Source: Caecibacter massiliensis (GTDB taxonomy: Bacteria > Bacillota > Negativicutes > Veillonellales > Megasphaeraceae). Taken from it: a DNA stretch of 64,000 nucleotides. Where the stretch lies: assembly GCA_900095875.1 (NCBI GenBank), contig LT608311.1:2264774-2328773 (forward strand), written 5' to 3'. The notes beneath the pieces are model-generated. The model saw only the letters and a list, made by a program, of their open reading frames with translations. It was not told where the DNA came from and did not search any database. This document shows, one piece after another, positions 5,956 through 9,308 of this stretch (positions are counted from its first letter, which is position 1; the number at the start of each line of letters is the position of its first letter). The position numbers and the translations under genes were made by a program.

Positions 5956-8877
5956 TCAGTGGGTAAGATATTCATACAGCCTGGTTTCGACCGGGACATC
6001 CAGCTTGAACTGGAAATTGACGACTGGCAGGGTTTTCCCATCATTGCCAGTCATTTCTTTTTGTAGTGGTCCGGCGACTACCGCGAGGTCTCCCAGATAG
6101 TAGAAATCGGTGCCTTCGCTGTCACTTTTTTTGACAAAGAGCAGTTTCCGCGTCAGTGGCGACTGGATTTTGGGAACTTCTCTGGAATCCAGCCGGACAC
6201 GGGACCGGGTCATCCAGCTGAAGCGGCCGGGCGCGATGAACTGGTCTTCGTATTTGGTGCTTTCGGAAATATCGTCGCTCTTTTTATAGGTGACAAAAAT
6301 CGGGCAGGTGCGCCGTCCCGTCGTTTCAAAATCGCTGTCATCGACGATGGCATAGCCATTGAGCGTCCCTTCGCGGTTCGTCTTATAATTGAGCAGGCGC
6401 GATACGTCTTTACGGGAGTATTTTCCATAGCGGACGAATCCGCCGGCATAGGCCTGGCCGTCGGTCTGCTTGTGGAACTGGTATATGCCATAGGCCAGAC
6501 AATCGTTCAAATAGGTCAGAAATTCGCTGTTTTTTATGAGAAACTTCATCTGGGGCGTCAGGACGAACTGATCTTCCTTGAGCGATACGAGGGCAATGTG
6601 CCGGTATTTTTTCTGGGCCGTCTGTGTAAAAAAGTGCAGGGACAGGACATTTTCGATGCCGGCAATCGTTTTTTCCGATGTTTCATAGCCACAGGTATGA
6701 CGTATATACGCCCGGAGATCGCCTATAGAAAGGGAAGGATGGGATAAGAGATACTGCAGGATCCACAATTCCTCCAGCCGTTTGCCGTTGGCCAGTTCCA
6801 GACTGACCAGTTTCAGCACGGCTTCATGGTCTTCCGTGAGCGTTGCCGGTGTCTTATCGATGCTTTGGGCGTAGGCGAAATAGGACTGACTTTTTTTGAC
6901 ATATAAGTACGGATCTTTATCCCCAAGCCTTACGAAATCCATCATGAGCGGCCGCCGTCCCAGACGGTATTTCAAATCTTTATAAGACTGCTTTAGTTCC
7001 TGCGCATCGGCCAGCCATTTTCGGTTGTTGATGGCTTCGTATATTTTTTCTTTGACGACATCCTGGAAATGGACAGAGGTGGAACCGGGCAGGAAATTCT
7101 GGGACATCGTACGCCGCACATCGTCCTTGTTGTAGGTACGGTCTCCGTAGAGGGCGATAGGCAGAAGAAAATTGTTTTTGTAATTGCCGATGAAATCGAG
7201 GACTTCCAGATAGCGTTTATGGGGGAATTTGCGCAGGCCGCGGCCAAGCTGCTGGACGAAGATGATGGCCGACTGGGTAGGGCGCAGCATGATGATCTGG
7301 TCGATTGAGGGAATATCGACCCCTTCGTTGAATATATCGCGGGTCAGGATATACTCGAGATAGTCGGGCGTCGTATCCGGACTGCCTTCGAGGCGGCGGA
7401 TGGCATCATCCCGCATTTCCGGGGTAGAATCACCGCTGAGTGCTATGGCCCGGCGGCCATGCTTTTGCAATAAACCGGCCAGTATGCGGGCCTCTTCGAC
7501 GCGGCTGCAGAATATGAGACAGCGCAGGCGGTTTCCATCACACCCGTAATAAGAAGAGTAGTACAGGATATGGCGGACCCGTTCTTCGCAGGTCAGATCC
7601 TGTATGGTGGCGGATTCATCCAGTAGTTCCCCGTTTACGGAAATATCGGCAATGCCGTGATAGTGGAACGGTACCAGCATATTTTCCGCCAATGCCTGAT
7701 GGAGACGGATTTCATAGGCGATGTGGTGATGAAACAGTTCGTAGATATCGAAATCGTCGGACCGTTCCGGCGTGGCCGTCATGCCCAGCCAGAACCGGGG
7801 TTTGAAATAGTGGAATATCCGTTGGTAGGAAGCCGCTCCGGCACGGTGTACTTCATCGACGACAATATAATCAAACGAGTCCGGAGAGAATTTTGTATAT
7901 ACGTCAGGCTGGGAAAGGGTCTGGATCGTACAGAAGAGGTAAGGTGCATTCCAGTCTTTCTGATTGCCGGATAACAGGCCCGTATCTTCCCGATCACACC
8001 AGACGGTTTCATAACTCCGGCGGGCCGCTTTGGCGATGAGTTCCCGGTGGACGACGAATAAGAAACGCTTTGGCTGGAAGATGCGCACGTCAAAAGCAGA
8101 CAGGTAGGTTTTGCCTGTCCCCGTTGCCGAAATGAGGAGCCCTCTGTCAGCGCCCTGGTCGCGCAGCTGCCGGAGTCCCTGCAGGGCTTCCTTCTGCATG
8201 GCATTGGGATTGATGGTCTGCATGCGTGCCAGATGGGTATGCCGGGGCCTGTTACAGGTGTATACACGTTCGTACGCGTTGATCCAGTTTTCATCGACGG
8301 GGACGGCTTCCTCCCAAAGCGTATCGAATTCCGAACGCATCTGCCGGATGAGGCCGCCATCTTTGGATGAGGTGAAGAAGACATTCCATTCCTGGTTTGT
8401 CGTCAGGGCGGAGGCCGTGAGGTTGCTGCTGCCCAGGATCATCGTGTAGTTTTCCTGAGTCCGGTTGGGCAGATGGAACAGATAGCCTTTGGCATGGAAG
8501 CCGTGGTCTTCCGTGACCATGCGGAGCTCGATGGATGATGGCGGACAGAGATAGGTCTGCAGGGTGAGCAGGTCGCGAAGGGCGTCGGGTTCAGTGAAGT
8601 TCAGATACTGGGAAGCCAGGATATAGCCTTTGACCGGACGGTCTTTATATTCCAGCAGCACATCTTTCAGGCAGGCAATGCCTGATTTGGTGATAAAGGC
8701 TACGGAAAAATAAAACTCATCGCAATAAGAAAGCTGCGTAACCAGTGTATCCAGCACTTTCGTCTTTTGTGCGCGGTTATTGGTCACAATACGGGGAACA
8801 TACCGTGAATCCGCTTTCGTATTATAATCGATAAAACCTTCGCGTAAACAATTTTCCAGTACATTGCCTGTCGTCAT
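5956..8877 (-). CDS. PLD-like nuclease / DEAD-DEAH helicase / DUF3427 fusion protein
   Basis: A 973-aa cytoplasmic multidomain protein. Residues about 40-190 form a phospholipase-D-like domain with one HKD-type motif (HAKGYLF at 128, then GSSNLTAS at about 149). Residues about 230-560 form a superfamily 2 helicase: Walker A SATGTGKT (250-257), DEVH box (341-344), MTATP (366-370) and motif VI QQLGRGLRK (542-550). The last 380 residues match the position of the DUF3427 domain. Proteins of this architecture are often found in accessory or defence-like settings, but their job is not settled; a role in cutting or remodelling DNA is inference. It follows the Nudix gene by 20 nt on the same strand, so the two are probably one operon. 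The ribosome site is AAAGGGTG. Confidence 0.85.
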   Translation of the reverse strand: MTTGNVLENCLREGFIDYNTKADSRYVPRIVTNNRAQKTKVLDTLVTQLSYCDEFYFSVAFITKSGIACLKDVLLEYKDRPVKGYILASQYLNFTEPDALRDLLTLQTYLCPPSSIELRMVTEDHGFHAKGYLFHLPNRTQENYTMILGSSNLTASALTTNQEWNVFFTSSKDGGLIRQMRSEFDTLWEEAVPVDENWINAYERVYTCNRPRHTHLARMQTINPNAMQKEALQGLRQLRDQGADRGLLISATGTGKTYLSAFDVRIFQPKRFLFVVHRELIAKAARRSYETVWCDREDTGLLSGNQKDWNAPYLFCTIQTLSQPDVYTKFSPDSFDYIVVDEVHRAGAASYQRIFHYFKPRFWLGMTATPERSDDFDIYELFHHHIAYEIRLHQALAENMLVPFHYHGIADISVNGELLDESATIQDLTCEERVRHILYYSSYYGCDGNRLRCLIFCSRVEEARILAGLLQKHGRRAIALSGDSTPEMRDDAIRRLEGSPDTTPDYLEYILTRDIFNEGVDIPSIDQIIMLRPTQSAIIFVQQLGRGLRKFPHKRYLEVLDFIGNYKNNFLLPIALYGDRTYNKDDVRRTMSQNFLPGSTSVHFQDVVKEKIYEAINNRKWLADAQELKQSYKDLKYRLGRRPLMMDFVRLGDKDPYLYVKKSQSYFAYAQSIDKTPATLTEDHEAVLKLVSLELANGKRLEELWILQYLLSHPSLSIGDLRAYIRHTCGYETSEKTIAGIENVLSLHFFTQTAQKKYRHIALVSLKEDQFVLTPQMKFLIKNSEFLTYLNDCLAYGIYQFHKQTDGQAYAGGFVRYGKYSRKDVSRLLNYKTNREGTLNGYAIVDDSDFETTGRRTCPIFVTYKKSDDISESTKYEDQFIAPGRFSWMTRSRVRLDSREVPKIQSPLTRKLLFVKKSDSEGTDFYYLGDLAVVAGPLQKEMTGNDGKTLPVVNFQFKLDVPVETRLYEYLTH

Positions 8878-8897
8878 CGTGGAGCACCCTTTACTAT

Positions 8898-9308
8898 TTA
8901 ATCCGGTTTCGATTCAGAAACTAATTTTTCCATGATAGGCTGATCGGCTGCCGCCCAGTCCAGGGATGGCAGTTCCTGCGGCGGAAGCCAGCATGACGCA
9001 ATATGCTCTTTGCGGATAAATTCCGGTGAAGAGAGGGGACAATAGAAGGCATGCATGGTAATGGCAAAATCGGGGTACTGATGATGGACCGTCATATATA
9101 AGTCACTTTCCTTGATGGTCGTATGAATGTTCATTTCTTCCCGTAATTCCCGTTCCAGTGCGGCGTGCCGTGATTCTCCCGCTTCTATTTTTCCGCCAGG
9201 AAATTCATATTTGAACGATACATAAGGATACTTCCCTTTTCCCCGCTGCATGCAGAGAATGTTTCCATTATACGTCAGAATAGCCGCTACGACTTCCAAT
9301 TGTTTCAT
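8898..9308 (-). CDS. Nudix hydrolase, MutT-like (deoxy)nucleoside triphosphate pyrophosphohydrolase
   Basis: A 136-aa MutT-type protein. The Nudix box is clear: GGKIEAGESRHAALERELRE followed by EMN, where the usual Gly after the EE pair is replaced. The EFPGGKIE lead-in is typical of small MutT/CTP-pyrophosphohydrolase enzymes that hydrolyse damaged or non-canonical (d)NTPs. The start has a good ribosome site (AAAGGTG). A possible -10 (TATAAT on the minus strand, 9345-9350) lies about 40 nt upstream. It is the first gene of a two-gene unit with the PLD-helicase-DUF3427 protein, which suggests a shared task in nucleotide or DNA quality control rather than simple housekeeping. Confidence 0.85.
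   Translation of the reverse strand: MKQLEVVAAILTYNGNILCMQRGKGKYPYVSFKYEFPGGKIEAGESRHAALERELREEMNIHTTIKESDLYMTVHHQYPDFAITMHAFYCPLSSPEFIRKEHIASCWLPPQELPSLDWAAADQPIMEKLVSESKPD

Follow-up and report, generated by a model that had tools for sequence, protein, structure and literature searches.

A SauUSI-type restriction gene and its Nudix neighbour in Caecibacter massiliensis: a possible restriction-plus-sanitation module

Results

The gene pair and its products

The stretch of Caecibacter massiliensis DNA studied here (64,000 nt, positions 2,264,774 to 2,328,773 of contig LT608311.1; hereafter the window) carries on its minus strand a gene for a small Nudix hydrolase and, 20 nt further on, a gene for a 973-aa protein with nuclease and helicase domains. 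An initial annotation, made from the sequence alone, had singled out these two genes as a candidate protection module. Both reading frames (9308..8898 and 8877..5956) are exactly as it claimed, and Pfam returns the domain order that it gave for the large protein, i.e. PLDc_2, then ResIII/Helicase_C, then DUF3427. By eye, a Shine-Dalgarno-like sequence precedes each gene. The features are listed below.

8898..9308, minus strand: Nudix hydrolase, 136 aa, PADLOC PDC-S07 subfamily (Pfam NUDIX 3.7e-16; PADLOC PDLC04899 6.5e-43; PDB 3gwy 4.5e-41)
9135..9194, minus strand: intact Nudix box GX5EX7REUXEE, residues 39-58 (pattern match)
8878..8897, minus strand: 20-nt gap with Shine-Dalgarno-like AAGGGTG ahead of the restriction gene (sequence, by eye)
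5956..8877, minus strand: predicted SauUSI-type Type IV restriction enzyme, dependent on 5-methylcytosine (m5C) or 5-hydroxymethylcytosine (hm5C), 973 aa (PADLOC mREase_IV; PDB 7clg)
8314..8538, minus strand: PLD nuclease domain, residues 114-188, HxK = H128/K130 (Pfam PLDc_2 1e-8)
7762..8214, minus strand: SF2 motor, first half, with Walker A GTGKT at 253 and DEVH at 341 (Pfam ResIII 2.6e-38)
7231..7533, minus strand: SF2 motor, second half, with QQLGRGLR at 542 (Pfam Helicase_C 8.7e-11)
5962..6807, minus strand: DUF3427, coupler plus SRA target-recognition domain, residues 691-972 (Pfam 3.6e-80; SRA fold in the SauUSI counterpart, PMC7913695)
5959..6429, minus strand: SRA part, by homology a reader of m5C (hand-read pairwise alignment to SauUSI)

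By homology, the 973-aa protein is a SauUSI-type Type IV restriction enzyme composed of a PLD nuclease, an SF2 motor and an SRA reader. It matches PDB 7clg over its full length (residues 8-973, E 9.6e-209) and the PADLOC mREase_IV model PDLC03658 over residues 7-972 (E 1.3e-215). We take 7clg, an entry labelled 'putative helicase', to be the structure of SauUSI from Staphylococcus aureus. Its 953 residues and its numbering, which fits that of PMC7913695, agree with this assignment. The PLD HxK and SF2 motor motifs (H128/K130, GTGKT, DEVH, QQLGRGLR) are all intact, and H128 and K130 are invariant across 13 homologues. In SauUSI the C-terminal region consists of a coupler and an SRA domain that reads m5C (PMC7913695), and a hand-read comparison of its m5C pocket with the window enzyme finds four of six residues identical (Y831=Y842, F841=F861, D858=D878, W868=W888), with I842 replaced by V862 and M829 by N840. 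SauUSI itself cuts m5C and hm5C DNA using ATP or dATP (PMC3874153). The likeness thus extends over full-length homology, the PLD-SF2-coupler-SRA order, catalytic motifs and most of the pocket, at about 40% identity. The initial annotation had called the pair the best candidate in the window for an under-described system, but the large protein belongs to a family, SauUSI, that is biochemically and structurally solved (PMC3874153, PMC7913695). Both genes already carry PADLOC labels (mREase_IV, PDC-S07); what holds of that proposal is the pairing and the direction towards defence.

The closest solved relative of the window Nudix is 3GWY (Q5LBB1_BACFN, Bacteroides fragilis), a protein of similar length and 51.2% identity over 129 aa, whose entry is annotated as a putative CTP pyrophosphohydrolase. 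The subfamily hidden Markov model, the Nudix box and a supported tree group in common with 3GWY place the window protein in the 3GWY-type or PDC-S07 subfamily (PDC presumably standing for 'phage defence candidate'), and Pfam finds no domain in it other than the NUDIX type. It misses the equivalog cut-offs for MutT, an 8-oxo-dGTPase (TIGR00586, 65.1 vs 97.9 bits), and for NudG (PRK10546, 87.2 vs 156 bits).

A published screen tested eight Nudix proteins, Q5LBB1_BACFN among them, on 74 compounds (PMC5158307). The kcat/Km values given there, to which their authors attach large errors, are 6.7e6 M-1 s-1 on 5-Me-CTP, 4.8e6 on 5-Me-dCTP, 4.4e6 on 5-MeOH-dCTP (taken here as 5-hydroxymethyl-dCTP) and 8.5e4 on 5-OH-dCTP, with much lower activity on canonical nucleoside triphosphates (NTPs); this activity is known in vitro only. 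E. coli NudG resembles 3GWY in acting on 5-methyl-dCTP, at 1.3e6 M-1 s-1 against 4.7e4 on CTP in a table of the same paper and at 3e5 as quoted elsewhere (PMC3744803), but it lies in another part of the Nudix tree. MutT also hydrolyses 5-methyl-dCTP, about 100-fold more weakly than NudG (PMC3744803). From its relationship to 3GWY we infer that the window Nudix would act on 5-methyl-dCTP and 5-hydroxymethyl-dCTP. A MutT-like role against oxidative or other DNA damage, as first suggested, is disfavoured by the missed MutT and NudG cut-offs and by the preference of the closest assayed homologue for 5-methyl and 5-hydroxymethyl cytosine nucleotides (PMC5158307).

Linkage in an even sample of the phylum

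The phylum was sampled evenly with 299 genomes, 40 of which hold a total of 42 PF11907 (DUF3427) matches; 14 of these matches are SauUSI-type (>215 bits). At E 0.001 some Nudix gene is hit by the PDC-S07 model in 284 of the 299 genomes; the subfamily was therefore delimited at a gap in the scores, with 96 matches at or above 123 bits and the next at 110, a threshold chosen after the list had been seen. All 96 matches, and the one at 110 bits, were inspected with up to 6 kb of flank per side. A PDC-S07-type Nudix gene lies within 50 nt of 11 of the 14 SauUSI-type genes. Random linkage can be discarded, as about 0.01 of the 14 would be expected within 1 kb, assuming one Nudix copy per 2.5-Mb genome. 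In the three non-adjacent cases the Nudix is 1.8 kb away near a contig edge (G222), 14 kb away (G248) or missing (G174). Of the remaining 28 PF11907 matches, most lie on longer frames of around 1050 aa and some are fragments; six have the Nudix directly adjacent. The initial expectation that a Nudix gene stands beside DUF3427 helicases more often than chance is thus borne out for SauUSI-type enzymes, and more weakly for the remainder of the family.

Viewed from the Nudix side, 28 of the 96 genes directly adjoin or are fused with an SRA enzyme, which is SauUSI-type in 11 cases, the long type in six, an SRA-HNH enzyme in seven and a fused SRA-HNH-Nudix protein in four. Elsewhere the neighbours are varied. 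Of 129 immediate neighbours (at least 90 aa) from loci outside the DUF3427-helicase cluster, five match the PADLOC HNH mREase_IV model, and the other defence families among the 25 of 126 listed match one neighbour protein each; HD, HNH and metabolic families are the most frequent in Pfam. At locus L116, which is outside the tree and the neighbour tables, a scan of all open reading frames (ORFs) found a Nudix gene and no SRA enzyme.

Linkage across bacteria and archaea

A wider scan started from 13 SauUSI-type proteins, of which 11 have and two lack an adjacent Nudix, and the best 80 of 552 relatives were kept, so that the set leans towards window-like enzymes. Three of the 80 loci recur in other sets, and L227 has some sequence in common with L063. 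A Nudix gene lies within 400 nt of the SauUSI-type gene in 74 of the 80 loci (scan of all ORFs): upstream on the same strand in 60, downstream on the same strand in four and downstream convergent in ten. By mechanical ORF calls, 24 of the 60 upstream Nudix genes overlap the restriction gene. The association is found in 40 of 42 loci from Bacillota, 21 of 22 from Bacteroidota, 10 of 12 from Methanobacteriota, both from Pseudomonadota and the one from Bathyarchaeota (0/1 unplaced). Five of the six exceptions have no Nudix, and their contigs end within 750 nt on at least one side. The sixth, L240:1318-9601 from Methanobrevibacter, holds tandem SauUSI-type genes, with the Nudix before a broken copy and the second copy (an 878-aa frame) about 5 kb downstream.

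PF11907 is present in seven of 15 genomes of the window's genus. All nine further SauUSI-type genes examined from the genus and order have an adjacent Nudix (L296 is also in the 80-locus set); it precedes the enzyme gene in the four genus members and follows it, on the same strand, in the remaining five. G071 of the 299-genome sample belongs to the same genus, and its contig has sequence in common with Megasphaera sp. MJR8396C (L134, L161). The pair also occurs on plasmids of Lactiplantibacillus plantarum, Hymenobacter canadensis and Latilactobacillus curvatus, and in an unverified human-faecal phage record (L276) a Nudix follows a SauUSI-like gene. In a record of S. aureus strain 333 labelled as a plasmid, the Nudix WP_000755954.1, which contains 127 residues of PDB 5x1x, is encoded directly upstream of the SauUSI homologue, whose frame is broken there.

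Two further features were noted at such loci. SauUSI-type enzymes of about 1120-1150 aa occur at L163, L164, L167, L169, L171, L184, L188, L190, L194, L197 and L206 (e.g. L206:7001-10375), and both of those tested by Pfam, L206 and L163 (borderline), end in a Peptidase_S24 (LexA-like) domain, hinting at SOS-linked self-cleavage. A MazG-like nucleotide pyrophosphohydrolase, possibly a second pool cleaner, is encoded near the SauUSI-Nudix pair in four of the 80 loci and on one plasmid (L272:6877-7197, L176:3585-3959, L187:11682-12020, L195:4244-4597, L238:5499-5834).

SRA-HNH enzymes as a second partner

Seven of the 96 Nudix genes have an SRA-HNH enzyme as their direct neighbour, split or cut in two cases, and at four more SRA, HNH and Nudix form a single chain of 414-472 aa. 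In profile searches against the PDB this partner matches TagI (6ghc, 8.5e-33, HNH part) and ScoMcrA (5zmm, 1.3e-24, residues 10-273, SRA plus HNH; 5zmn, 6.3e-8, residues 10-156, SRA part). The 5zmm and 5zmn matches confirm SRA and HNH in one chain; Pfam SAD_SRA reaches 9.5e-5 in L277, below its cut-off. In two fused proteins Pfam finds NUDIX in both and HNH in one, and a further HNH-Nudix fusion of 487 aa is encoded on Paenibacillus polymyxa plasmid pSb31l. TagI and ScoMcrA, SRA-HNH modification-dependent endonucleases, thus resemble the second partner of the Nudix subfamily; unlike the window enzyme they have an unrelated nuclease and no motor, and the window holds no SRA-HNH gene. Neither SauUSI nor TagI accepts glucosyl-hmC; both accept m5C and hm5C (PMC3874153, PMC6212794), the two bases that 3GWY removes as dCTPs.

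Viral contigs (IMG/VR) scanned with 3GWY alone yielded 13 loci. An SRA-HNH gene lies directly downstream in 12 of them, and the 13th ends at the contig edge; seven of the 12 pairs overlap by 7 nt, and at L288 the SRA-HNH is in pieces. In the phylum sample, nine of the ten SRA-HNH matches that reach 260 bits lie next to a Nudix or are fused to one, against two of six weaker, partial or stop-bearing genes (p 0.036). We do not rely on this trend because the profile was built from Nudix-linked loci; moreover, G046, one of the nine, has two stops within the match, and counting it as broken gives 8/9 vs 3/7.

Three loci show other arrangements. On Aerococcus urinaeequi plasmid pT4302 (L310:1-3343) an SRA-HNH gene immediately follows a restriction-modification pair (dcm / MutH-Sau3AI), and the stretch covered holds no Nudix. 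In Collinsella aerofaciens (L290:5001-5990) a 329-aa protein joins a Nudix domain to a domain of the mismatch endonuclease Vsr, an enzyme that acts on mismatches left by m5C deamination. On Treponema saccharophilum plasmid pTS1 (L293:3598-5420) a Nudix gene, its product sharing 35% identity with 3GWY, overlaps the gene of an AAA_21 (AbiEii-like) ATPase by 4 nt; two DNA cytosine methyltransferases and a restriction gene of the Eco47II family are close by.

The Nudix tree

A FastTree phylogeny of 186 Nudix domains, built on few columns and with many weak forks, places the window Nudix and 3GWY in one 51-row set with support 97, composed of 36 SauUSI-linked rows, 13 from the viral scan, one of the long type and 3GWY itself. 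Apart from 3GWY, 49 of the 50 rows come from loci with a visible SRA enzyme and the 50th (L282) is cut by a contig end, so that the set holds no known unlinked gene, although only four of the 50 come from a sample chosen neither via the restriction enzyme nor via 3GWY. The SRA-HNH label shows at least four gains or losses on starred branches, and the pairing therefore probably arose more than once.

Surroundings of the pair in the window

No cognate DNA methyltransferase was found next to the restriction gene: the adjoining ORFs encode a peptidase C26 (Pfam) and, past the Nudix, an amidohydrolase-like protein (by eye), and a restriction-modification (RM) system was accordingly rejected. A defence-island setting was not seen, as ten selected ORFs between 157 and 15231, the two adjoining ones and eight more, match no PADLOC model at E 1e-5. 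An AT-rich island does exist at 9-10 kb (32% GC); the surroundings are as first described only in part, and two ORFs of the alleged decayed mobile DNA have no Pfam match. None of the four genes flanking the pair was found beside it in 13 related loci (E 1e-10; two loci duplicate others), and the pair therefore seems to sit at different genomic places in relatives.

Discussion

A restriction enzyme with a partner in the nucleotide pool

On balance, we regard the two genes as probably forming one restriction-plus-sanitation module in which the Nudix would keep m5C and hm5C out of host DNA. The SRA domain would flip out a 5-methyl- or 5-hydroxymethyl-cytosine, the SF2 motor would translocate and the PLD domain would shred the DNA. 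Like Type IV enzymes in general, the protein lacks a protecting methyltransferase, and its target is itself the modified base, so that the host would be safe only as long as its own DNA is free of m5C and hm5C in the context recognised by the enzyme. Judging from general metabolism, m5C nucleotides would enter from RNA turnover and from shredded foreign m5C DNA. Once such bases re-entered the dNTP pool, DNA polymerase could place m5C anywhere, and the chromosome would become a target. By hydrolysing 5-methyl-dCTP and 5-hydroxymethyl-dCTP to monophosphates, the Nudix would block their polymerisation into the chromosome, and it would thereby resemble an immunity partner that acts on the nucleotide pool rather than on DNA marks. 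The Nudix gene is mostly first in the operon and often overlaps the nuclease gene, and fusions occur, which is the pattern expected of an immunity partner. The sequences themselves show homology, intact domains and motifs, linkage, the order of the genes, fusions and a pairing that recurs on the tree. For homologues, published work shows that SauUSI and TagI cut m5C/hm5C DNA and that 3GWY and E. coli NudG hydrolyse 5-methyl-dCTP; the self-protecting role is our inference.

More generally, SRA-type modification-dependent enzymes may often be restriction-sanitation (R-S) modules, with a 5-Me-/5-hm-dCTP Nudix as immunity partner and self known by base exclusion. SauUSI and 5x1x would then be two halves of one system, and the SRA-HNH-Nudix fusions its single-chain form. 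We hold this wider proposal more tentatively, as an idea slightly short of probable.

Several observations weigh against a module of this kind. SauUSI was active as an E. coli clone, a single polypeptide being enough (PMC3874153), and TagI, heterologously expressed alone, restricted T4gt (PMC12707154); a Nudix partner is therefore not needed in E. coli. That host has NudG and MutT, both reported active on 5-methyl-dCTP (PMC3744803). A search for cytosine-5 methyltransferases (PF00145, the only type covered genome-wide) found no depletion in SauUSI-type genomes, with 3 of 14 over the cut-off (plus a weak match in G262) against 78 of 285 others, and the idea that SauUSI hosts avoid such enzymes found no support. 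The window genome itself has PF00145 matches in at least three frames; five of its seven matches are listed, all between 210 and 498 kb on the contig, and the pair is at 2.27 Mb. The enzyme must therefore tolerate some motif-specific host m5C; randomly misincorporated m5C, unlike motif-specific methylation, would presumably not be confined to motifs. The large errors of the 3GWY kinetics also belong here.

The linkage has its own gaps. McrC (PF10117) has a subfamily Nudix within 2 kb at one of 61 places (listings compared by hand), and that one (G182) holds a DUF3427 enzyme as well; PF10117 is a broad family whose members need not all be m5C-dependent, although the McrC system is so in its type form. 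Among SRA-HNH loci on plasmids, ten of the 12 examined (out of 25 listed relatives of a fused protein) have no Nudix and two have one. One of the ten, L310, is cut on its 3' side at the record start, and two of the plasmid relatives' records (H73, H74) annotate a pyrophosphohydrolase or MutT beside the HNH. A Nudix does not, then, accompany every m5C-dependent enzyme (McrC 1/61; plasmid SRA-HNH 2/12). A Fusobacterium vincentii record likewise has the SauUSI-type enzyme without a Nudix, and in G248 and G174 no Nudix adjoins it. Finally, no SRA enzyme directly adjoins, or is fused to, 68 of the 96 members of the subfamily, and part of the family is therefore probably housekeeping.

Alternative explanations

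Instead of protecting the host, the two enzymes could attack phages in two layers, the Nudix starving those that use 5-hydroxymethyl- or 5-methyl-dCTP and the restriction enzyme cutting whatever modified DNA is still made. The 3GWY substrates (PMC5158307) suit this equally, the pair travels on phage-like DNA too, as in the 12 of 13 Nudix-detected viral loci with SRA-HNH directly downstream, and a 2025 review raised 5hm-dCTP pool monitoring as a possible route of phage detection (PMC12707154). The TagI authors call surprising a taxonomic mismatch that weakens this explanation (PMC6212794), and hosts in our 80-locus set are mostly Bacillota, Bacteroidota and methanogens. Moreover, removal of hm-dCTP would also take away the base that the partner needs, and we consider a two-layer attack unlikely.

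Less likely still is a general pool sanitiser of the MutT/NudG kind, directed at oxidised nucleotides and merely travelling with defence genes, with no functional coupling. Such a role would suit the 68 subfamily members found away from any SRA enzyme, the public records, which name the subfamily only (deoxy)nucleoside triphosphate pyrophosphohydrolase or MutT, and the suppression of oxidative mutations by NudG (PMC5158307, table). Against it, the linkage is specific (11/14 vs 1/61 for McrC) and spans bacteria and archaea; the Nudix is found upstream, downstream, convergent and in SRA-HNH-Nudix fusions, with linkage changing several times on the tree; and the activity of its closest assayed relative drops about 50-fold from 5-Me-dCTP to 5-OH-dCTP (PMC5158307).

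That the Nudix regulates the restriction enzyme, e.g. via a nucleotide signal or by binding the motor, would agree with the fusions and overlapping genes, which are compatible with physical coupling, but appears very unlikely for a protein in which Pfam finds no domain beyond the NUDIX type and whose subfamily pairs both with an ATP-driven enzyme and with the SRA-HNH type, of which the type member TagI is NTP-independent (PMC6212794), so that a shared motor-regulating role is improbable.

Relation to earlier work

The restriction enzyme family is known, and PDC-S07 is a known defence candidate. In Streptococcus suis, PDC-S07 and RM type IV were co-localised within 20 genes in 23 of 23 cases, printed without explanation (PMC12813430); the accessible part of that work states neither the substrate link nor the pairing with two SRA types. 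The word 'Nudix' is absent from the accessible text of the SauUSI paper (PMC7913695), two reviews (PMC3874153, PMC12707154) and the TagI paper (PMC6212794), although in the S. aureus record the Nudix is the next gene upstream of SauUSI. The paper that reports the 3GWY kinetics treats the substrate as a mutagenic nucleotide, and the part accessible does not mention restriction (PMC5158307). In the open literature searched, a scope that leaves aside subscription journals and preprints, no statement of a Nudix-SauUSI or Nudix-SRA-HNH link was found.

Conclusions

Gene transfer meets one of its main barriers in Type IV enzymes such as SauUSI, and the usual explanation for a cell's escape from its own enzyme is that it leaves its DNA unmethylated. 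If our interpretation of the pair as a restriction-plus-sanitation module is correct, a dedicated enzyme of the dNTP pool would be the missing immunity partner, which would explain the orphan defence candidate PDC-S07 and give the 5-methyl-dCTP activity of some Nudix enzymes a physiological role. In cells that have no other enzyme of this kind, losing the Nudix would then be predicted to make restriction toxic, and restriction-proficient strains could be studied by supplying modified nucleosides or blocking them.

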